Assembly: GCF_025153525.1 (NCBI RefSeq)
Contig: NZ_JANZNR010000007.1
Location: forward strand, 1-64,000
DNA length: 64,000 nucleotides
Source: Psychroserpens sp. SPM9
GTDB lineage: Bacteria; Bacteroidota; Bacteroidia; Flavobacteriales; Flavobacteriaceae
Reading direction: 5' to 3'
Shown: positions 52,345-61,627 of the stretch, piece after piece
How positions within the stretch are numbered: position 1 is the stretch's first letter
Layout of the letters: the number at the start of each line of letters is the position of its first letter
The notes under the pieces: generated by a model
Database searches by the model: none
The model's input: the letters and a program-made list of their open reading frames with translations, nothing else
What the model was told of the DNA's origin: nothing
Position numbers and translations under genes: made by a program

Positions 52345-52410
52345 CGTGAAATTTATTTACACATTTAAAATTAACAAAAATTTAATTGCGATTATTCAAT
52401 AATATTTATT

Positions 52411-52429
52411 TACTTTGTAATTCAAAGTA
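52411..52429. promoter_or_regulatory. Inverted-repeat operator, site 1
   Basis: TACTTTG-TAATT-CAAAGTA, a perfect 7-bp inverted repeat with a 5-base centre, followed by CTTTA. The left arm overlaps a near-consensus -7 box (TTACTTTG), so a bound repressor would block transcription start. It ends seven bases before the ATG at 52437. A near copy is site 2 at 54214-54230. Confidence 0.65.
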
Positions 52430-52436
52430 CTTTACT

Positions 52437-53066
52437 ATGGAATCAAAAAACTATCTACAAGATATCAATGAGATAAAAAACATGATGACTAAATCATCTC
52501 GCTTTTTATCCATTAGTGGTTTATCTGGAACGCTAGCAGGAATCTATGCGCTTATTGGCGCTTACCTTGGTTACCAAATTATTTATAAAGATAATATTGT
52601 CAATTTTGATGGTTATCGTGCTCTAGTAGTATCGGATCAAGAACTTCTAAACATTTTTATCATTGCTATGAGTGTATTTGTACTTTCGGTAATTACTGGT
52701 ATTGCATTTAGCTATAGTAAAGCGAAGAAACAAAACGAAAGCATGTGGGATTCTACCTCTAAGCGATTGATCATTAATTTTATGATTCCATTAGCGGCTG
52801 GAGGTATTTTCATTTTATTACTTATGGAGAAAAACCTCTATGCCTTTGTAGCGCCTTTGACCTTAATCTTTTATGGCTTGGCTTGTGTTAATGCAAGTAA
52901 GTACACATTAGGTTATATTAGATATTTAGGAATTACTGTCATTATTCTTGGCTTATTAGCCACCTATTTTTTAGGTTACGGATTATTCTTTTGGGCTTTA
53001 GGTTTTGGTGTTTGCCACATCATTTATGGCACCATTATGCATTTTAAATACGATCGGTTAAATTAG
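52437..53066 (+). CDS. Six-helix membrane protein next to a winged-helix regulator
   Basis: 209 aa from ATG at 52437 (the upstream extension runs into the operator and is not likely translated). Cytoplasmic N-terminus (SKNYLQDINEIKNMMTKSSRFLS), then about six membrane helices: SLSGTLAGIYALIGAYLGYQ, IFIIAMSVFVLSVITGIAF, FMIPLAAGGIFILLL, FVAPLTLIFYGLACVN and two near the end (GITVIILGLLATYFLGYGL, WALGFGVCHIIYGTIM). Family unnamed to me. It precedes a regulator gene by 51 bases and is preceded by operator site 1; I infer a regulator-target pair. Confidence 0.7.
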   Translation: MESKNYLQDINEIKNMMTKSSRFLSISGLSGTLAGIYALIGAYLGYQIIYKDNIVNFDGYRALVVSDQELLNIFIIAMSVFVLSVITGIAFSYSKAKKQNESMWDSTSKRLIINFMIPLAAGGIFILLLMEKNLYAFVAPLTLIFYGLACVNASKYTLGYIRYLGITVIILGLLATYFLGYGLFFWALGFGVCHIIYGTIMHFKYDRLN

Positions 53067-53117
53067 TTATAGTCTTTTTAATTTTAAAAATTTTATACAG
53101 AACACAACACATTCAAT

Positions 53118-53411
53118 TTGAGCATCATCAACAACATAAACAAAGCATTTGATCATCGCATTAGATTAGGCATCATGTCAATTTTAATGGTTAATGAATA
53201 TGCTGATTTTAACATGCTGAAAGAGATGCTTGGTGCAACAGACGGTAATCTTGCTAGTCACACTAAAGCCCTTGAAAAAGCAGATTATATAAAAGTTGAA
53301 AAACAGTTTATAGGCCGAAAGCCAAACACGCGCTACTCGACTACTAAACTCGGAAGAGCAGAATTTAAAAAACATATTGAAGCTCTAGAAAAACTGATAA
53401 ACAAACAATAA
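53118..53411 (+). CDS. Small winged-helix transcriptional regulator (HTH_34-type)
   Basis: 97 aa, essentially one winged-helix domain: FDHRIRLGIMSILMVNEYADFNMLKEMLGATDGNLASHTKALEKADYIKVEKQFIGRKPNTRYSTTKLGRAEFKKHIE. This matches the PF13601-type family (MarR/ArsR-related), often placed beside membrane proteins of Bacteroidota. It starts with TTG; no ATG is near. It probably binds the repeated ACTTTG-N5-CAAAGT operators found on both sides (52411 and 54214) and so controls its own unit and the next one. That link is inference from position and repeat identity. Confidence 0.8.
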   Translation: MSIINNINKAFDHRIRLGIMSILMVNEYADFNMLKEMLGATDGNLASHTKALEKADYIKVEKQFIGRKPNTRYSTTKLGRAEFKKHIEALEKLINKQ

Positions 53412-53419
53412 GATAACCA

Positions 53420-54220
53420 ATGGAATATTTCGTAGATAAACAGTCGATAGTACGAGAAATTTGGGGAGATAGCGATACAATTCTACTCATTTTTGCTGGA
53501 GCTTCTGCAGAGTTTGCATTAAACAAAGCTGTAGATTGGTTATACTTTACTGGTCAACTTCCAAAAGATCCTTTAGGTCGTTTATTCTCTACGGTTTCCT
53601 ATGCTCGAACCATCGTATTTGCCGAAAAACAAGTTGCTTTTAATGCTATTGACAAAATTAATGCTATACATGGATCGGTTGAAAAAAGTCGTGGTAAGGT
53701 CATTCCCAACTGGGCTTATAAAGATGTACTCTTTATGCTTATTGACTATTCTATACGTGCTTATGAAATTTTAGAGAGAAAACTGGAAAGACAGGAACGT
53801 GAAGCTGTTTTTAAGGTATTTTATGAAGTTGGCAAACGCATGCATATCTCGGATTTACCTAAAGATTATGAAGCGTTTAAAGTCATGCGTCATGCACATA
53901 TCAAACAACATCTTTACAATAGTGATTTCACAAAAGATTTATATAAACAATACCGAAAACACTTAGGACTTATACGTTTCAAGCTTCTCATTGAAACTCA
54001 AATTATGCTAACACCTCAAACGGTTGTTAGGCTTTTAGAACTAAGAAAAATTTCAATGTTGAAGCCTCTAATTTCTGTGTACAAAATGAGTCGAATCATC
54101 AAATTAGATGGTGTATTGAAGTCGGTCATTTTACCATCAGCATACAAAAAACAGATCAAAGCTATGAACATCTCAAAACACAAATCATCACATCGCATTT
54201 TTTTTAATCAATCACTTTGA
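53420..54220 (+). CDS. MpaB-family oxygenase (DUF2236)
   Basis: 266 aa. N-terminal SIVREIWGDSDTILLIFAGASAEFALNKAVDWL, then RLFSTVSYARTIVFAEKQVAFNAIDKINAIHGSV and PNWAYKDVLFMLIDYSIRAYEIL, as in DUF2236/MpaB heme or rubber-oxygenase-like proteins. Several histidines (INAIHG, VMRHAHIKQHL) could bind the cofactor, but the heme ligand cannot be confirmed. It follows the regulator gene by eight bases in the same operon. Its stop codon overlaps operator site 2 of the next unit. Confidence 0.78.
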   Translation: MEYFVDKQSIVREIWGDSDTILLIFAGASAEFALNKAVDWLYFTGQLPKDPLGRLFSTVSYARTIVFAEKQVAFNAIDKINAIHGSVEKSRGKVIPNWAYKDVLFMLIDYSIRAYEILERKLERQEREAVFKVFYEVGKRMHISDLPKDYEAFKVMRHAHIKQHLYNSDFTKDLYKQYRKHLGLIRFKLLIETQIMLTPQTVVRLLELRKISMLKPLISVYKMSRIIKLDGVLKSVILPSAYKKQIKAMNISKHKSSHRIFFNQSL

Positions 54221-54230
54221 AATACAAAGT
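54214..54230. promoter_or_regulatory. Inverted-repeat operator, site 2
   Basis: ACTTTG-AAATA-CAAAGT, followed by ACTTTA, repeating site 1 with the same centre length and the same flank (CAAAGTACTTTA in both). The left arm overlaps TCACTTTG, a possible -7 box, and the stop codon of the oxygenase gene. It is 18 bases before the ATG of the DUF4173 gene. Confidence 0.65.
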
Positions 54231-54248
54231 ACTTTAAATACATAAATT

Positions 54249-55649
54249 ATGAAACCACTGTTCACCATTATCGCCTCAATACTATTTAGTATGCTTTTCT
54301 ACGGAAAGCATATCGGACTCAACCTCAGCATTTTTTCTGTTCTGGCCATTTTATTCCTAGGTTTATATCAGCCTAAAAAAATTAAGGACAAACGGATTGT
54401 ATTACACGCACTTGCCTACCTTCTCACAGCTGTAGTAGTCTTTATTCAGCATTCATCATTGGCTATTATTGCAAATTGTGTCGCATTTTTCACTTTGGTA
54501 GGCGCCATCTCTAACAGCAACACCTCAATTTACGTGCATTGGCTCAACGGTTTATATACGAGTATTGCCGGATTTTTCTATAGAACTTTTGAAGTGGATT
54601 CTGAAGCTGAAAAAGTAAACTGGAAAAAGGATATCGATGTCGTTCATTGGATTAAGCTTATCGCGATTCCGTTGGTATTTATCATCATTTTCATTCTGTT
54701 ATACAAAAATGGAAATCCCATGTTTAGTGATTTAGTTAATATGATCAATTTTGATTTTATCAATTTTCAATGGGTATTATTTACCGTTTTAGGCTACTTT
54801 TTATTCAGTAATATTTCGAAACCTCTTACTGTAGAACCTGCAACTTCAACAGATTTAAAAATTAATAATGACTTATCTAAATCGGATTCATTTTCCGAAG
54901 ACACCTTAAAAAAAGAAAAACAATTAGGAACCGTTTTATTGGGTCTTCTCAACCTACTAATTCTGTTTTATATCATTACAGATATCACCTATTTGGTCAC
55001 CACTGAAACTTCTAGTGCTTCAGCCTTATCAAATCAGGTTCATAGTGGAATCAACACACTCATTGCTTCAATTCTAATAGCAATTGTCATTATTCTTTAC
55101 TTTTTTAGAGGTGACCTCAATTTCTATTCAGATAATAAAACCTTGAAAAACTTAACGTTTTTATGGATTGGACTTAATGTGTTACTCATAATTTTAATTG
55201 CCATTAAAAATCAAACGTATATCACATCCTTTGGTTTGACTTACAAACGTATTGGGGTTCATGTGTATATCTTTTTGACACTTGTTGGGCTTGTTACCAC
55301 CTTTTTAAAGGTGATGAATATAAAAAACATGGTTTTCCTCTTTAGAAGAAATACACAAATTGCCTTTATCGTTCTTTTGCTTTGTAGTACTATTAATTGG
55401 GATCGTATCATCACCAAATACAATCTCAACCACGCTGCTGCTTTTGATATGGATTACCTCATCAAACTTTCGGATAGAAATGCCATTTTACTATATCAAA
55501 AAAAGGACGACATCGCTATTTCTGATGAAAACAAAAACAGGATTGACACCAAATACAGAGCCTATATCAATAAGCTCAATATAAGAGCATGGCAAGAATA
55601 TAGTTATGAAAATTTTAATGTTGAACTAGATCCTAAAACTTCAGATTAA
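54249..55649 (+). CDS. DUF4173 polytopic membrane protein
   Basis: 466 aa with about eleven membrane segments. Key strings that recall DUF4173 (DUF4153-like): VALAYLLTAVVVFIQHSSLAIIA-type N-terminus, VHWIKLIAIPLVFIIIFILLYKNGNPMF, NFQWVLFTVLGYFLFSNIS, ITSFGLTYKRIGVHVYIFLTLVGL and a soluble end (IRAWQEYSYENFNVE). The family is widespread in Bacteroidota and has no known function. It begins a run of eight tightly packed genes and is preceded by operator site 2, the target of the upstream regulator (inference). Confidence 0.8.
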   Translation: MKPLFTIIASILFSMLFYGKHIGLNLSIFSVLAILFLGLYQPKKIKDKRIVLHALAYLLTAVVVFIQHSSLAIIANCVAFFTLVGAISNSNTSIYVHWLNGLYTSIAGFFYRTFEVDSEAEKVNWKKDIDVVHWIKLIAIPLVFIIIFILLYKNGNPMFSDLVNMINFDFINFQWVLFTVLGYFLFSNISKPLTVEPATSTDLKINNDLSKSDSFSEDTLKKEKQLGTVLLGLLNLLILFYIITDITYLVTTETSSASALSNQVHSGINTLIASILIAIVIILYFFRGDLNFYSDNKTLKNLTFLWIGLNVLLIILIAIKNQTYITSFGLTYKRIGVHVYIFLTLVGLVTTFLKVMNIKNMVFLFRRNTQIAFIVLLLCSTINWDRIITKYNLNHAAAFDMDYLIKLSDRNAILLYQKKDDIAISDENKNRIDTKYRAYINKLNIRAWQEYSYENFNVELDPKTSD

Positions 55650-55650
55650 G

Positions 55651-56025
55651 ATGAATGTCCCTTCCAATCTCGCAAAATCCTGTAGTCTGGCAACCATTAT
55701 TTTTTGGGCTGTTATAGCGATTGAACCCATAGAATTTAATGCTTTACCATTTGTAATACTATCTGTAATTCCTGTTTTTTTCTGCACTTCATTAGTGATT
55801 GTTCTAACGATTTGTCCGTTTTTTTGGACAGCAAAAACCAAAGGAGCAAATCCGGTTAAAGTCTTTAAAACATGGCATCCCTACTATACAATTATCTGCT
55901 TTGGAATAAGTATTTCTGTGATAGTTTTGGCAGATTTTGAGTCTTTCATTATTGCATTTTTCACCTCAGCCTTTATCACGACAAATCAATCTTGGGTTTG
56001 GTTTGCAAAAGCCAATCCAAAATGA
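55651..56025 (+). CDS. Small membrane protein (three to four helices), function unknown
   Basis: 124 aa: helices at ~13-32, 35-58, 77-94 and 97-114. No signal peptide, no recognised family. One base separates it from the DUF4173 stop, and its own stop overlaps the start of the Coq4-like gene (ATGA), so it is translated within the operon. Confidence 0.6.
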   Translation: MNVPSNLAKSCSLATIIFWAVIAIEPIEFNALPFVILSVIPVFFCTSLVIVLTICPFFWTAKTKGANPVKVFKTWHPYYTIICFGISISVIVLADFESFIIAFFTSAFITTNQSWVWFAKANPK

Positions 56026-56528
56026 AACAGTTTAAGCGCTATAGAAAACAAGTTATTGAATGGCTTTTTGAACATACACAAAAAGTGTACACACGTTACT
56101 TTAAATCTCATGAACCTTGGAATGTCTCACGTCGTGATTTATTAAACTTTCCAAAGAATTCTTTTGGCTATCATTTAGGTTTGTTTTTAACAGAACATCA
56201 TTTTGAACTCATTCCTAAAGTAGAACGTCATGATGCTTACCACACCTTAACTGGTTTTGGTATTAAAGTAGAGGATGAAATTGCTTTGCAATGCCTTTGC
56301 TATGGTAACGGAAAACGCAGTTTATACTTGTATGGCGCTATGATTTTAGGCATTATCATTCTTCCCGATTATTATAAGTATTATTACAAATCTTATCGCT
56401 TAGGACAACAAGCTAATCCATTTCATCACTTTAATTATGAGGAATTATTACCGGTTAATATTACCGATTTAAGAGCTGCTGTTTTCACGGATTCACAACA
56501 AAAAAAGCTGAAAATATCATGGCAATAG
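56022..56528 (+). CDS. Coq4-like protein with HDxxHx11E motif
   Basis: 168 aa from ATG at 56022 (the frame opens ten codons earlier, but this ATG overlaps the previous stop as ATGA). It has the Coq4 signature His70-Asp71-x-x-His74-x11-Glu86 (VERHDAYHTLTGFG, then KVEDEIALQ), which binds zinc in Coq4. Eukaryotic Coq4 helps ubiquinone synthesis, but flavobacteria use menaquinone and have no ubiquinone pathway, so the role here must differ. The N-terminal helices are basic and the rest is hydrophobic and aromatic (DYYKYYYKSYRL). Fits the membrane-protein operon. Confidence 0.72.
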   Translation: MKQFKRYRKQVIEWLFEHTQKVYTRYFKSHEPWNVSRRDLLNFPKNSFGYHLGLFLTEHHFELIPKVERHDAYHTLTGFGIKVEDEIALQCLCYGNGKRSLYLYGAMILGIIILPDYYKYYYKSYRLGQQANPFHHFNYEELLPVNITDLRAAVFTDSQQKKLKISWQ

Positions 56529-56812
56529 ATCGACTAAAAATGGCGCTATGGACAGCCTTTATCTTTTTGTGTTTTGGAACCCTGCTTTTAATCCTACAAC
56601 TTTGTTATCAAAAAGGATATAGCATTACAATATTTGGACTCTATTATGTGTTATTTTCAATAGTATTTAATGGTATCATTGTTTTAATTTTACTAGGCGT
56701 ATTAATTTTTAAAACCAACCGCATAAAAACCTTAAAATCTATAGGCGTTTTATTGCTTAATATTCCAATAGCTTATTTGTATTATCACTTAGTTATTAAA
56801 ATCCTTATTTAA
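56519..56812 (+). CDS. Small membrane protein, function unknown
   Basis: 97 aa with three membrane helices (~8-30, 37-63, 72-95) and a short basic loop (KTNRIKTLKS). The start codon lies ten bases inside the end of the Coq4-like gene, which argues for coupled translation. No recognised family. Confidence 0.6.
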   Translation: MAIDRLKMALWTAFIFLCFGTLLLILQLCYQKGYSITIFGLYYVLFSIVFNGIIVLILLGVLIFKTNRIKTLKSIGVLLLNIPIAYLYYHLVIKILI

Positions 56813-56813
56813 A

Positions 56814-57446
56814 ATGACAAAAAAACTTAAATGGCTCGCCTTATTAGCACTACTTATAGTAACAGCACTTTTACTCACCAATTACTGGATTAGTTATCAA
56901 GCTAAAGACAAACTTTATAGTACTGTTGATACGATTCCGAAGAATAAAGTAGGTTTACTTTTAGGAACTTCTAAATTTTTATCAAACGGAAATATCAACC
57001 TCTATTACACTTACCGTATCAATGCTGCAGTAGCCTTGTTTAATGCTAATAAAATAGATTTTATACTCATTAGCGGAGATAATGGCAGTAAATCTTACGA
57101 TGAGCCTACCACCTTTAAAGAGGATTTAATAGCAAGAGGAATTCCTGAAGATCGTATAGTCTTAGACTACGCTGGCTTTAGAACTTTAGATTCTGTAGTT
57201 AGAGCCAAGGCCATTTTTGGTCAAGAATCTATCACTATAATATCACAACAATTTCACAATGAACGTGCACTTTATTTAGCCAGTCACAACGCTATTAATG
57301 CGGTTGCTTTTAATGCAAAAGATGTTTCGGGACGTTATGGGTTAAAAGTTCAGCTTAGAGAATACCTAGCCAGAGCTAAAGCATCGAGCGATATTTTATT
57401 TAATGTAGAACCTAAATTTTTTGGAGATCCCATAGAAATCAAATGA
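56814..57446 (+). CDS. SanA/YdcF-family protein (DUF218)
   Basis: 210 aa. N-terminal membrane anchor (LALLALLIVTALLLTNYWIS), then the DUF218 domain: VGLLLGTSKFLSNGNINLYYTYRINAAVALF, FILISGDNGSKSYDEPTTFKEDLIARGIPEDRIVLDYAGFRTLDSVVRAKAIFG and ITIISQQFHNERALYLA. This matches SanA (vancomycin exclusion at high temperature), thought to keep the envelope barrier intact. It is one base from the gene before it and overlaps the DUF2809 gene by four bases. Confidence 0.88.
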   Translation: MTKKLKWLALLALLIVTALLLTNYWISYQAKDKLYSTVDTIPKNKVGLLLGTSKFLSNGNINLYYTYRINAAVALFNANKIDFILISGDNGSKSYDEPTTFKEDLIARGIPEDRIVLDYAGFRTLDSVVRAKAIFGQESITIISQQFHNERALYLASHNAINAVAFNAKDVSGRYGLKVQLREYLARAKASSDILFNVEPKFFGDPIEIK

Positions 57447-57826
57447 CCATCAAATTCAACAAACCCTTTTTTGCTTCAAGTCTGCTGCTATTTTCAGTAG
57501 AAGTCTGTATTGCAGTATTTTTATCCGAAGGTTTTATAAGACACACCTTTGGTGATTTTTTGGTGGTCATTTTAATGTATTGCGCTATCAAAAGTTTTAT
57601 CAAAGTCAAACCTTTAAAAATTGCTATTGCTGTTTTAGCTTTTGCCTTTTTAATTGAATTTTTACAATGGTTCAATCTCCTCGATTATTTAAACTTAAGA
57701 CAGAGTTCATTAGCTGTCATTATTTTAGGCAGCACTTTTGAAATTACAGACCTTATCGCCTATACGCTAGGCGTGATTACCATTTATTTAATAGACACTA
57801 AAATTAGCATCTCATGGAAACCATAA
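57443..57826 (+). CDS. DUF2809 membrane protein
   Basis: 127 aa with four membrane helices. RHTFGDFLVVILMYCAIKSFIKVKP, FAFLIEFLQWFNL and LGSTFEITDLIAYTLGV are the DUF2809 hallmarks. Function unknown. It overlaps SanA by four bases and the next gene by thirteen, so the three are probably translated together. Confidence 0.8.
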   Translation: MTIKFNKPFFASSLLLFSVEVCIAVFLSEGFIRHTFGDFLVVILMYCAIKSFIKVKPLKIAIAVLAFAFLIEFLQWFNLLDYLNLRQSSLAVIILGSTFEITDLIAYTLGVITIYLIDTKISISWKP

Positions 57827-58473
57827 AAACACTTATTTTCAACAGGTTTAGAATCTTATCATTGCTCACTATTTCTATGGTATTGAGTATTGTATTGCTT
57901 ATGATTAGAATGAAGCTACATCAGTCATTTTATTTATTGTTTTTAGTATGGAATTTGTTTCTGGCCTGTATTCCGTTTGCTATTACAACAGGCTTGGCAA
58001 CGACATCTAAAATTAGCAAACTAACTCTGTTTGTTTCTTTTGGCGTCTGGTTATTATTCTTGCCAAACGCTCCATACATTGTCACCGATTTGCTACATTT
58101 AATGCATTCTGAACGTCATTTGATGTGGCTGGATGTATTGGTTATTTTATCGTTTGCTTTTAACGGATTGATTCTGTTTTTCTTATCGCTTTCTGATATG
58201 GAAACAATATTAAAGCAGCAACTTAAGCCAAAATTTATTGTCCCGATAATGTTGTCTGTTTTTGGCCTAACAGCTTTTGGTATTTACCTCGGAAGGTTTC
58301 TAAGGTATAACTCATGGGAAATTATAAACAATCCACTAGGTATTTTCTCTGATATGTTTCAACTTATTTTTGAACCTAACCTTGAAGCCTGGATTTTCAC
58401 TCTAACCTTTGCCTCTTTTTTAGCCATTAGTTATTGGCTACTAAAAGCTTTTTCTAATTCTAAATGTAACTAA
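57814..58473 (+). CDS. DUF1361 membrane protein
   Basis: 219 aa with about six membrane helices. The family motif LFLPNAPYIVTDLLHLM (with the conserved Pro-Asn-Ala-Pro-Tyr) and LYLVWNLFLACIPF-like N-terminal region fit DUF1361. These proteins are often beside DUF2809. Function unknown; the operon position suggests a shared envelope role. Confidence 0.82.
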   Translation: METIKTLIFNRFRILSLLTISMVLSIVLLMIRMKLHQSFYLLFLVWNLFLACIPFAITTGLATTSKISKLTLFVSFGVWLLFLPNAPYIVTDLLHLMHSERHLMWLDVLVILSFAFNGLILFFLSLSDMETILKQQLKPKFIVPIMLSVFGLTAFGIYLGRFLRYNSWEIINNPLGIFSDMFQLIFEPNLEAWIFTLTFASFLAISYWLLKAFSNSKCN

Positions 58474-58475
58474 TC

Positions 58476-59180
58476 ATGAAATATTACAGCCTTATACTCT
58501 TGTGTTTCTTATCTTGTTTAGCGTGTAAAAAACAAGATCGTCGAAAAGTGGTCGACGACACAAAAACTAGCACTGAAGCACTCAGTGAACAAAAAACGGT
58601 AGCAATTGCAGACTTACCAATTCTCATCGATAGCACTTCAATTATCATTCATCCAATTGGGAACTATATCAAATCTAAAAACAGGTCTGATTATTTTAAA
58701 TCCAGCAGTTATGAGTCTGATAGCTTTTCAACTGTAAATCATACAAGAAATCAAATCCGTGGATTGATGTCTAATATCAAATTTCAGCATATAGATTCAA
58801 ATGCGCTAAAACCTCTAACAGACAAAAAGATCTGTATTAGTTCTATGAATTTCCTACGTGAAGTCTTCGAAGCAACAGCACAGGGTTATTTTCTTTACCT
58901 TGTTTATGACAAAGACACGAATGTAGATGGCGTTCTTAATTACAAAGATTTAGAGTCCCTTTATATGAGTAATTTAGACGGAACTGCTTTTAGAAAATTG
59001 TCGCCCGACAATCAAGATTTAAAGCAATGGAAAATTATTATTGAAGCCAAAAAACTCTATTTTAAGAGCATTGAAGACAGTGATAAAAATGGTGAGTTTG
59101 ACAACAAAGATACCCTCCATTATTTCTATTTAGATTTAAACGCAATCAATTCTCAAGTTACTGAATACTACCCTATTTAG
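58476..59180 (+). CDS. Lipoprotein, function unknown, last gene of the membrane-protein operon
   Basis: 234 aa. Lipoprotein signal with Cys17 (CFLSCLACKKQ). The middle contains DKDTNVDGVLNYKDLESLYMSNLDGTAFRKLSPDNQDL, Asp-rich loops that resemble calcium-binding dockerin- or EF-hand-like loops, and repeats the idea at EDSDKNGEFDNKDTLHYF. These may bind a metal ion (inference). It starts two bases after the DUF1361 stop, so it belongs to the operon, followed by an 86-base gap. Confidence 0.65.
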   Translation: MKYYSLILLCFLSCLACKKQDRRKVVDDTKTSTEALSEQKTVAIADLPILIDSTSIIIHPIGNYIKSKNRSDYFKSSSYESDSFSTVNHTRNQIRGLMSNIKFQHIDSNALKPLTDKKICISSMNFLREVFEATAQGYFLYLVYDKDTNVDGVLNYKDLESLYMSNLDGTAFRKLSPDNQDLKQWKIIIEAKKLYFKSIEDSDKNGEFDNKDTLHYFYLDLNAINSQVTEYYPI

Positions 59181-59266: not shown

Positions 59267-61627
59267 ATGGATAGGACATTAAAGACTAACAAAGTATTAC
59301 AGCTCTGTTGTATTTTGCTATTGACTCTTATGCCTTTGGAATGCTTACAAGCTCAAAAGGAAAGAAATCAATGGTATTTTGGCTTGCTCTCAGGTATGAA
59401 ATACGACGGTAGCAACTACAGCAGTTTGGATGACAATTCCATCGAAAGGCAAATCGCTTTTGGAATGATTGAAGGTCCAGATAATATTATCTGTGCCAAT
59501 GACGAAGATGGAAACCTCATGTTCTATTCTGATGGTCGAATTTTCAGAAATAAACTACATCAAAATTTACTTAACTCTCCAACAGATGAATATGCCGTTC
59601 GTGAATCGCAGGCTGCAGTAGCTCGTGATCCTGGCAATCCTAATAGATACTATGTCTTTGTAACCATTTATGATGGTATTAGACAAAAATTAAGCTACTC
59701 TGTGGTAGACATGTCACTCGATGATGGTTTAGGCGGATTAGTTCCAGACAAAAAACATATATTATTAACAAGCAGAGTTGGTCAACACATGGTCACTGCC
59801 AGGCATGCAAATGGTAGAGATATATGGTTAATTGTGATACGCGAAGGCACTTATCTTTCTTATTTAATTACAGAAAACGGTATCTCAAATACACCAGTAA
59901 CATCTAATGAAGGCATCAGTTTTTTTGATGGTAATGCCACACAATTTGGAGTGATGGAAATATCGCCTGATAACAAACTCATTGCTGCAGGGTTTCCTGT
60001 TCTTAAAAAATTATTTATTCTGACATTTAATGACTTAACCGGCAAGTTGGATTTGATTTATGAAGAAGAAGAAACCGAATTAACTATTGATGACGGGGCT
60101 TTTACCAGTGTGGAATTTGCGCCTAATAGTAAAGTCCTTTATACTACGTATTTATTTGATGGGATACAACAGTACGATTTATCTGATTTAGATAATATTC
60201 CACCAAGAATAGACATTACTACAACACCTTCGCATTACCCTTATTTAAAACGCGGTCCAGACGGCCAGGTGTTTAGTGTCGAGACTAGAAAACCTTATAT
60301 TGGTGCGATTCAAAATCCGAATGTGATTGGTGATGGCTGTAATTATAATCCCAATGTGCTAAGTCTGAGTGGTTCGACACTTTTAGATTTACCAACATTT
60401 CTATTGCCTAAATATCCAGAAGGCATTTCGTTTATCAATATCTGTGAAGGAGAAACCACAGAGTTAACCTGTAGCGTTTCTATTGGACGGCCTTTGTACC
60501 ATTGGGATTTAGGCGATGGAACCACTGCATCTGAGGAACATGTTTCACATACCTATGCAGCTCCTGGAACCTACACGGTTTCGGTGGTGGTGACCGATCT
60601 CTATTCTGGGGATTTACTCTATACAGAAACCAAAGAGATTACTATATATGCGACACCCAACATTACTGAATTGGATGATATATATGCCTGTTTTGAAGAA
60701 GACACTACAATTTTCTTTTCAGATTATAACGAAGATATCCTCAATGGTTTAGATCCAAATATCTATTCTGTTTCTTATTATTTTACTGAAACTGACGCCT
60801 TATTAAAAGACAATAAAGTGATAGAGTACATACCTGAATTAGGTTCGAAAACCGTATGGGCCCGATTAGAAAACTCATTAAACACAACCTGTTACGATAT
60901 TGCTCATTTTGATATCGTTACCCCAGAATTTATAACAATCGATTTGCCTTCAGATTATTATATATGTGATGACAGAACCACAATTACTCTAAATGCGCCT
61001 GATGGTTTTACAAGTTATGAATGGTCTACAGGAGAAACCACGCAAAGCATTACCGTAAACACTATAGGTGATTACGTTTTGTATGTTGTTAAAGATTTTG
61101 GTGATTTTACTTGCGAATCGCAAACAGTTATTTCAGTAAAAATACCCGATCCGCCTCCTATTATTCAAGAAGTAAACGTTATCGATTGGAGCCAAGACCA
61201 CAACTCAATTGAAATTATTCTTGAGGAAGAAGGAGCTTATGAATACTCTGTAGATGGTATCAATTATCAAAGTTCGCCTCAGTTTTTTAATTTACCATTG
61301 GCTGATTATATCGCTTATGTAAGAGAGGTAAATTGTTTAGAAGAAGTGAGTAGCGACCCATTATTTCTTCTCTATTACAATAAGTTTTTCACCCCTAACA
61401 ATGATGGTTATAATGACTATTGGCAAATTATTAATTCGCGACAAGACGAAGCCATTGAAGTTTATATTTTTAATCGCTACGGAAAACAACTGGCACAACT
61501 AAAGTCTACCGACAAAGGATGGGATGGCACTTATAATGGTGTGCCTTTACCTAAATCAGATTATTGGTTTAAAGTTGTACGATCTAATGGTAAAATTCAT
61601 CATGGCCATTTTACGTTGAAGCGATAG
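59267..61627 (+). CDS. T9SS type B protein with PKD domain (gliding-associated C-terminal domain)
   Basis: 786 aa. Signal peptide MDRTLKTNKVLQLCCILLLTLMPLECLQAQ. Residues ~35-390 form a propeller-like body (WYFGLLSGMKYDGSN; VELAPNSKVLYTTYLF-like blades). A PKD domain at ~400-460 (LYHWDLGDGTTASEEHVSHTYAAPGTYTVSVVVTD) is followed by Ig-like repeats and, at ~705-786, the T9SS type B sorting domain (YNKFFTPNNDGYNDYWQI, IFNRYGKQLAQL, GWDGTYNG, SDYWFKVVR). It is exported through T9SS and kept at the surface; adhesion or gliding is likely. The ligand is not known. Confidence 0.92.
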   Translation: MDRTLKTNKVLQLCCILLLTLMPLECLQAQKERNQWYFGLLSGMKYDGSNYSSLDDNSIERQIAFGMIEGPDNIICANDEDGNLMFYSDGRIFRNKLHQNLLNSPTDEYAVRESQAAVARDPGNPNRYYVFVTIYDGIRQKLSYSVVDMSLDDGLGGLVPDKKHILLTSRVGQHMVTARHANGRDIWLIVIREGTYLSYLITENGISNTPVTSNEGISFFDGNATQFGVMEISPDNKLIAAGFPVLKKLFILTFNDLTGKLDLIYEEEETELTIDDGAFTSVEFAPNSKVLYTTYLFDGIQQYDLSDLDNIPPRIDITTTPSHYPYLKRGPDGQVFSVETRKPYIGAIQNPNVIGDGCNYNPNVLSLSGSTLLDLPTFLLPKYPEGISFINICEGETTELTCSVSIGRPLYHWDLGDGTTASEEHVSHTYAAPGTYTVSVVVTDLYSGDLLYTETKEITIYATPNITELDDIYACFEEDTTIFFSDYNEDILNGLDPNIYSVSYYFTETDALLKDNKVIEYIPELGSKTVWARLENSLNTTCYDIAHFDIVTPEFITIDLPSDYYICDDRTTITLNAPDGFTSYEWSTGETTQSITVNTIGDYVLYVVKDFGDFTCESQTVISVKIPDPPPIIQEVNVIDWSQDHNSIEIILEEEGAYEYSVDGINYQSSPQFFNLPLADYIAYVREVNCLEEVSSDPLFLLYYNKFFTPNNDGYNDYWQIINSRQDEAIEVYIFNRYGKQLAQLKSTDKGWDGTYNGVPLPKSDYWFKVVRSNGKIHHGHFTLKR

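Follow-up and report, generated by a model that had tools for sequence, protein, structure and literature searches.

A winged-helix regulator, its membrane-protein neighbour and a conserved operator point to a predicted autoregulated envelope-control circuit in Bacteroidota

To our knowledge, the control of envelope stress is poorly known in Bacteroidota compared with Proteobacteria and Firmicutes. CreBC-CreD is a system of E. coli, and CreD is a cell-envelope integrity protein. In an excerpt of the paper PMC11237479, the dyad of HAAS and a PadR-like winged helix-turn-helix (wHTH) protein is proposed as an alternative to two-component systems, found in envelope-stress neighbourhoods, and HAAS is described there as fused to multi-transmembrane parts including VanZ and an uncharacterised part with six transmembrane helices. 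Here, we analysed a stretch of 64,000 nucleotides (nt), called the window, from the 3.8 Mb genome of Psychroserpens sp. SPM9 (Flavobacteriaceae). It carries a gene for a 97-amino-acid (aa) regulator, REG, behind a gene for a membrane protein, M6, and two copies of the inverted repeat ACTTTG-N5-CAAAGT, operators 1 and 2. The operators enclose M6, REG and an MpaB-type gene (unit 1), and a tight run of eight genes (unit 2) follows operator 2. We propose, at a probability of roughly two in three, that this locus is an autoregulated envelope-control circuit of Bacteroidota, in which REG would be an autorepressor that is relieved by M6.

The likeness to the HAAS-PadR dyads lies in the arrangement of the pair. 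In the excerpt mentioned, the membrane partner always adjoins a standalone wHTH gene. We read 81 loci of the family (80 fetched and that of the window, out of 162 genomes with a strong REG orthologue), 40 of 79 in the class Bacteroidia and 20 of 32 outside the class. M6 lay directly upstream of REG on the same strand in all 121 family and class loci, which were taken by REG (within 350 nt in 118), and REG was adjacent in all 20 out-of-class loci, which were taken by M6. On the other hand, none of DUF1700, DUF1129 and DUF1048 was found among the best 25 of the 26 families matched by 36 M6 members at E up to 0.1, and M6 is modelled with one N-terminal helix, whereas HAAS is a three-helix domain. 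REG also differs, as it belongs to HTH_34, and PadR proteins appear as its fold neighbours only. No operator description was found in the excerpt of PMC11237479. By family membership REG is an HTH_34 regulator, and by the criteria tested the pair belongs neither to HAAS nor to PadR. By analogy, it may work as other dyads of a membrane protein and a winged-helix regulator do; its membrane family is new, and its operator is conserved to an unusual degree. Among the matches listed, the titles and abstract starts of the open-licence literature held no description of the locus, the operator or M6.

REG scored 106 bits against HTH_34 (PF13601; cut-off 27; profile positions 1-80 of 80), its only Pfam match at E 0.001, which bore out the winged helix named in a preliminary description of this DNA. 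Its score against the NCBIfam family HTH_metalloreg, of the ArsR/SmtB metalloregulators, was 22.1 bits, under the cut-off of 55. Its model (pLDDT 90.5) shows a winged helix and a long helix at the C-terminus. The closest solved fold was PH1061 of Pyrococcus (PDB 1ub9, HTH_34-like), which resembles REG in fold and length, with 32% identity in the structural alignment, but is archaeal. REG starts with TTG, and its relatives use ATG, GTG or TTG there or one to two codons upstream.

The preliminary description had placed the repeat at two sites around the regulator. Both exist and each is followed by ACTTTA, but the first starts at 52412, not at 52411. These two sites, which flank REG, were the only exact matches in the whole genome. 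One explanation holds that the repeats are chance or ordinary promoter letters, and the degenerate matches agree with it, since they sit at background level in both genome and window: with at most one mismatch, the plus strand of the genome had 18 matches versus 30 for the reversed control, and with at most two mismatches the window had 7 versus 6.5 expected. However, the palindrome with ACTTTA, at up to three mismatches, gave 4 matches in the window versus 0.22 expected, and none of 100 shuffles reached 4; these matches are the two sites and their echoes on the opposite strand. Moreover, the exact sites are conserved at the same two positions across families, and the three-half-site form ACTTTG-N5-MAAAGT-N-CTT matched 71 times, in 36 of 40 chosen genomes, versus 3 matches of the reversed control. 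A chance repeat was ruled out by the uniqueness in the genome, the positional conservation, the control counts and the shuffles, and a general promoter element by the limitation of exact sites to this locus in the source genome and by their tracking of the regulator. We count this explanation as refuted, with next to no probability left to it.

The sites followed REG from genome to genome. In the genus (23 genomes), at least two exact sites were present in 21 of 21 genomes with a REG orthologue and in neither of the two without REG. Among 299 family genomes, at least two were found in 129 of the 144 with a strong REG orthologue (all at 55% identity or more) versus 5 of the 155 others (Fisher 1e-59, kinship ignored). 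The reversed-pattern control gave 22 of 144 and 10 of 155, so that without REG the site count drops to the control level or lower. In the class (247 genomes, kinship likewise ignored), the figures were 58 of 79 genomes with strong REG and M6 versus 6 of 168 others. REG is very probably the cognate regulator of the sites. As REG binding to the operator is a prediction, another regulator could in principle bind the repeats, with REG merely linked to them. That is very improbable, since the sites fall to background where REG is absent, REG is the sole recognised DNA-binding protein at the window locus, and its predicted recognition region is nearly invariant in the family: T41, D42, G43, N44, A46, S47 and H48 did not vary in 28 aligned family rows. 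Some variation of this region was seen among class loci.

Several smaller observations concern the match of operator and regulator. A rule extending the operator to HTH_34 proteins at large was rejected, as the site is missing from 12 of the 13 family genomes whose sole REG relative is a weak one. Two exact palindromes without a strong REG were found in G142, G035, G056, G203 and G233, of which G142 has a weak REG relative; these may be chance or a diverged system. In three genomes of one family label (f16), G332 (locus L175), G474 (L202) and G530, the right half-site has changed to AAAAGT in one or both operators at the REG locus, and the recognition-helix residues varied there too (H48N in L175). 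Co-evolution of operator and regulator is possible in this group. Across the class loci, a comparison by eye of operator changes with REG recognition residues gave no clear result.

At the level of single loci, operator 1 was exact in 79 of the 81 family loci and had 11 of its 12 letters in the other 2. In the 40 class loci it was exact in 24, had 11 letters in 14 and was at background in 2. The search for operator 2 covered 150 nt from the end of REG, or 900 nt in the case of the window locus. It found an exact copy in 74 of the 81 family loci and in 21 of the 40 class loci; the remaining class loci had 11 letters (9 loci), 10 letters (1) or background (9). Shuffled segments reached at most 9 letters for site 1 and 10 for site 2. 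A second collection gave 80 named loci, which overlap with those above. M6 was present in all 80, exact operators lay on both sides in 74, and the other 6 had one operator at the expected place. Outside the class, operator 1 before M6 had 12 letters in 5 loci, 11 in 14 and 10 in 1, counts that have no shuffle baseline, and operator 2 was exact in 7 of the 20 loci; the adjacency of REG and the operator held even where M6 scored just 54-57 bits. Conservation of the repeat near orthologous genes had been set beforehand as a test in the preliminary description, and it was found at both positions in genus, family and class alike; outside the class it was found at the first. Two loci, L179 and L187, keep operator 1, with no unit 2 family and no operator 2 behind REG. 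Judged from the compared loci, the putative autoregulation is the most constant part of the circuit. The comparison also goes beyond the preliminary description: by the same loci, the invariant core is M6, REG and operator 1, while the content of unit 2 varies and MpaB is optional.

The position of the operators suggests how REG may act. In an excerpt of PMC9723704, the -7 box of Flavobacterium psychrophilum, TAnnTTTG, is placed at -12 to -5. With that spacing, the -7 box would have the left half-site as its core, and the operator would reach from about -10 to +7, the region in which a repressor acts. A near-consensus -7 box had been claimed for both sites; five of the six specified letters are present at each (TTACTTTG and TCACTTTG), against a consensus borrowed from F. 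psychrophilum. An operator that covers the predicted -7 box and start point is what one would expect of an autorepressor. At site 1, 78 of the 79 exact copies in the family were followed by the third half-site, ACTTT, as were 14 of the 24 in the class (NCTTT in 20 of these 24). At site 2, ACTTT followed 68 of the 85 family copies and 14 of the 22 class copies (NCTTT in 75 and 21, respectively). We considered the third half-site as the -7 box of promoter 2 and dropped this idea because in some relatives as little as 22 nt separates the operator start from the first ATG in any frame.

Promoters 1 and 2 are of different types. Counted from the operator, a TTG within -26 to -20 accompanied 47 of the 79 exact site 1 copies in the family and 20 of the 24 in the class, often about 20 nt 5' of the -7 box; at site 2, none of the 85 family copies and one of the 22 class copies had it. 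A 7-mer of the A*T* type at -15 to -9 was found in 103 of 107 copies of site 2, versus 1.5% in shuffles and 3 of 103 copies at site 1. The tract is uninterrupted, 7-8 bp long and ends exactly at -9, and at other TAnnTTTG promoter-like sites in these loci it occurred in 0.9% of 224. The A-tract is a real feature of the output promoter. A terminator-like U-tract before operator 2 was ruled out; a fair number of copies read AAAAATTT or similar and not T7-T8, so the common property is an uninterrupted A*T* tract of DNA and not a run of U in RNA. From this difference between the promoters, with TTG often at site 1 and a tract in fixed register at site 2 that is not a general promoter feature, it could be argued that REG activates or remodels promoter 2 by way of the A-tract and represses promoter 1 only. 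However, the operator is placed identically relative to the -7-like ACTTTG in both promoters, and a protein over the start region would normally block polymerase, so we regard activation as quite improbable.

The model of M6 has an N-terminal helix (residues 3-24) and six long helices, with a mean pLDDT of 85. The window protein matched no Pfam family at E 0.001, and a scan of 36 M6 members gave scattered weak matches, of which DUF308 was the commonest (8 members, best E 0.002). No solved or viral structure matched the fold at E up to 0.001, and no sequence in the PDB matched at E up to 1. It is natural to propose M6 as the signal input because it is the only invariant partner of REG, as in the proposal for the HAAS-PadR dyads. 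Alternatively, REG may repress both units and answer a small cytoplasmic ligand, with M6 as a further regulated effector, such as a transporter. This would agree with the closest folds of REG, which include MarR, PadR and ArsR-type repressors, several of them ligand-binding, and with the lack of a known signalling domain in M6. However, the genomes with M6 and those with strong REG were the identical 79 among the 247 of the class, so the two were never apart, whereas all other members come and go. In addition, the 97 residues of REG hold little beyond the winged helix and the C-terminal helix, which in the model would leave scant room for a pocket, and M6 has a conserved N-terminal segment, in which M17, S20, F23, S25, S27, G28, S30 and G31 were invariant in 36 rows. 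We consider the ligand explanation unlikely.

In the autorepressor circuit that we favour, a winged-helix dimer of REG would bind ACTTTG-N5-CAAAGT-ACTTT before the M6-REG pair and before the envelope unit, and with the -7 box and start point covered, both would be repressed. M6 would sense the state of the membrane or envelope and pull REG off the DNA, probably by means of the conserved segment at the M6 N-terminus. The genes of the envelope unit (DUF4153 or CreD, SanA-like, DUF2809, DUF1361 and others) would then be induced together with the M6-REG pair. We infer the dimer, its binding and the repression, and above all the role of M6 as signal input. The operators, their promoter register, the M6-REG pair, its co-inheritance and the families common to unlinked operators are read from sequence.

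The predicted output varies from lineage to lineage. Gene-family counts in unit 2 use all 81 family and 40 class loci; those of MpaB use 78 and 36, the REG open reading frame (ORF) being uncalled in L100, L101 and L112 and in L172, L173, L175 and L189. DUF4153 was present in 37 family and 18 class loci and CreD in 34 and 7, CreD being counted by a profile of 28 relatives, one of them identified by Pfam and NCBIfam. In the 80 named relatives, DUF4153 was found in 28, CreD in 44, both in none and neither in 8. By sequence family, DUF4153 and CreD take each other's place in unit 2, except that they occur together in class locus L185. CreD behind REG is a likeness to CreBC-CreD, but the putative control here is by a linked winged-helix protein, and the window has DUF4153 and not CreD. 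DgkA (PF01219) is among the further members of unit 2. Exosortase K with MSEP-CTERM (TIGR04287/TIGR04286) stood behind REG in 5 family loci (L055, L066, L077, L080 and L084), and exosortase N with a VIT protein (TIGR04476/TIGR04477) in 3 class loci (L191, L205 and L209); one or two members of each system were identified and the rest were assigned by similarity and length. These systems are absent from the window unit, and a literature search found no paper on exosortase N.

MpaB occurred in 15 of 78 family loci, within unit 1 or unit 2 or flanked by an operator pair of its own, and an operator lay upstream of it in all 15; in five congeners (L053-L057) it has a separate operator copy. DUF1361 was found at full length in 2 of 49 checked family genomes without REG, and 2 more gave weak fragmentary matches, one of them in G002, which belongs to the genus. 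DUF1361 is therefore scarce without REG, and the output mostly travels with the regulator. Although it varies, unit 2 appears by its families to be an envelope set, usually with DUF4153 or CreD, accompanied by Coq4-like, SanA-like, DUF2809, DUF1361, DgkA or exosortases K or N. The claim of one co-regulated envelope gene set is well supported by comparative genomics.

Operators away from the REG locus point in the same direction. By hand count, 24 of the 71 matches to the three-half-site form were unlinked, in 14 genomes. We read eight of these places, holding 9 of the 24 matches and fetched before their genes were known. In six, a family of the linked units lay within two genes; these families are a handful among thousands of genes, and no chance figure was computed for the comparison. 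A small membrane protein, X96, which is present in 16 of the 121 linked loci, stood behind four unlinked operators (E 6e-42 to 2e-15). DUF4153 stood behind one unlinked place, as a partial ORF on which Pfam was silent and a custom profile gave 3e-19. The second gene behind one unlinked operator encoded a cluster 18 protein (1e-73), and DUF2809 was the second gene behind that of L323. The remaining two places led to genes for a polysaccharide export protein (PF02563) and for a protein that matched nothing in Pfam. We suggest an envelope role because CreD, DgkA, XrtK/MSEP-CTERM and XrtN/VIT belong to the linked output and polysaccharide export stands behind an unlinked site. In L327, an unlinked DUF4153-like gene on the reverse strand has two complete tandem operators 99 bp apart. 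In L329, also on the reverse strand, the operator starts 30 nt before a Poly_export/SLBB gene, a hint that the regulon of this lineage has come to include surface polysaccharide.

Several points weigh against the proposed circuit. In class locus L172 no operator was found directly before M6, and in L210 the operator sits before DUF1361 rather than M6. Fifteen of the 144 regulator-bearing family genomes hold one exact site only, and the 5 of 155 with two sites and no strong REG were mentioned above. Eight of the 79 class genomes with M6-REG lack any exact site; in those read, the sequence before M6 was one letter off. The genome counts ignore kinship, save that M6-REG spans 32 family labels in the class search. 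Simple repression by a single dimer does not account for the third half-site or for the A-tract of operator 2. No homology of M6 to a known sensor was detected, and its sensor role is proposed from linkage and analogy. The model as a whole comes from sequence comparison, and binding and regulation are predicted.

The gene order in L210 is DUF1361, a 125-aa ORF, M6 and REG, so that output and regulator apparently form one unit there.

A wider reading, which we hold tentatively and at somewhat less than even odds, is that M6-REG is an ancestral envelope sensor of the whole phylum. M6, as a six-helix protein of a new family, would exert direct control over REG as a winged-helix repressor. The three-half-site operator would have changed little since before the class Bacteroidia, the outputs (CreD, DUF4153, DgkA, exosortases and polysaccharide export) would have been swapped by lineage, and the rigid A-tract in fixed register would set the linked output promoters apart from others. 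If this is true, the pair would be a Bacteroidota counterpart of the Cpx, Psp or Lia systems. The switch, the regulator and the likely membrane sensor can be read from the genome in dozens of families, giving a handle on function-unknown genes (DUF4153, DUF2809, DUF1361, X96 and M6) and on two exosortase systems.

Table 1. Features of the M6-REG locus in the window (positions are those of the window).
Feature	Position	Strand	Remarks
TTG, candidate -33 element of promoter 1	52386..52388	+	26-24 nt 5' of operator 1
Operator 1, ACTTTG-N5-CAAAGT	52412..52428	+	overlaps -7 box and start point predicted for M6-REG
Third half-site ACTTT, operator 1	52429..52433	+
M6, 209-aa membrane protein	52437..53066	+	proposed sensor partner of REG
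REG, 97-aa HTH_34 winged-helix regulator, TTG start	53118..53411	+	PF13601
MpaB-type (MPAB_Lcp_cat) protein, optional member	53420..54220	+	PF09995, 49 bits vs cut-off 23
A-tract (TTTTTTTT, then A)	54198..54206	+	fixed register 7 nt 5' of operator 2
Operator 2	54214..54230	+	overlaps MpaB stop codon and predicted unit 2 promoter
Third half-site ACTTT, operator 2	54231..54235	+
DUF4153 membrane protein, 466 aa, unit 2 gene 1	54249..55649	+	PF13687, 143 bits, 2e-41
Small membrane protein SM1	55651..56025	+	no Pfam; 28/81 family loci
Coq4-like protein	56022..56528	+	PF05019 partial, 34.9 bits vs 22.9; 35/81 family, 5/40 class loci
Small membrane protein SM2	56519..56812	+	no Pfam; 20/81 family loci
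SanA-like DUF218 protein	56814..57446	+	PF02698, 67 bits; 30/81 family loci
DUF2809 (VanZ-like) membrane protein	57443..57826	+	PF10990, 86.6 bits; 55/81 family loci
DUF1361 membrane protein	57814..58473	+	PF07099, 141 bits; 55/81 family, 9/40 class loci
Putative lipoprotein, unit 2 last gene	58476..59180	+	lipobox-like start by eye; 9/81 family loci

The proteins of the window were scanned against Pfam at E 0.001 and against NCBIfam, and the Pfam matches in the locus were HTH_34, MPAB_Lcp_cat, DUF4153, partial Coq4, DUF218, DUF2809 and DUF1361 (Table 1). The label DUF4173, given to the 466-aa protein in the preliminary description, was wrong: no Pfam match to DUF4173 was found, and DUF4153 was its sole match at E 0.001. 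The name SanA was right as to the domain, as the DUF218 cut-off was passed, but the protein scored 203 bits against the SanA equivalog of NCBIfam, below the cut-off of 363. Likewise, the Coq4-like protein exceeded the cut-off of its profile, but the match is limited to positions 124-214 of 221. The MpaB-type label was confirmed, although the gene is an optional member. The close packing also held: the recomputed gaps in unit 2 were +1, -4, -10, +1, -4, -13 and +2, within the range of -13 to +2 described before, and those in unit 1 were 51 and 8. Outside the conserved unit, 86 bp past unit 2, a gene at 59267-61627 encodes a 786-aa PKD-type protein, whose C-terminal end, judged by eye, resembles what we take to be a type IX secretion sorting domain.

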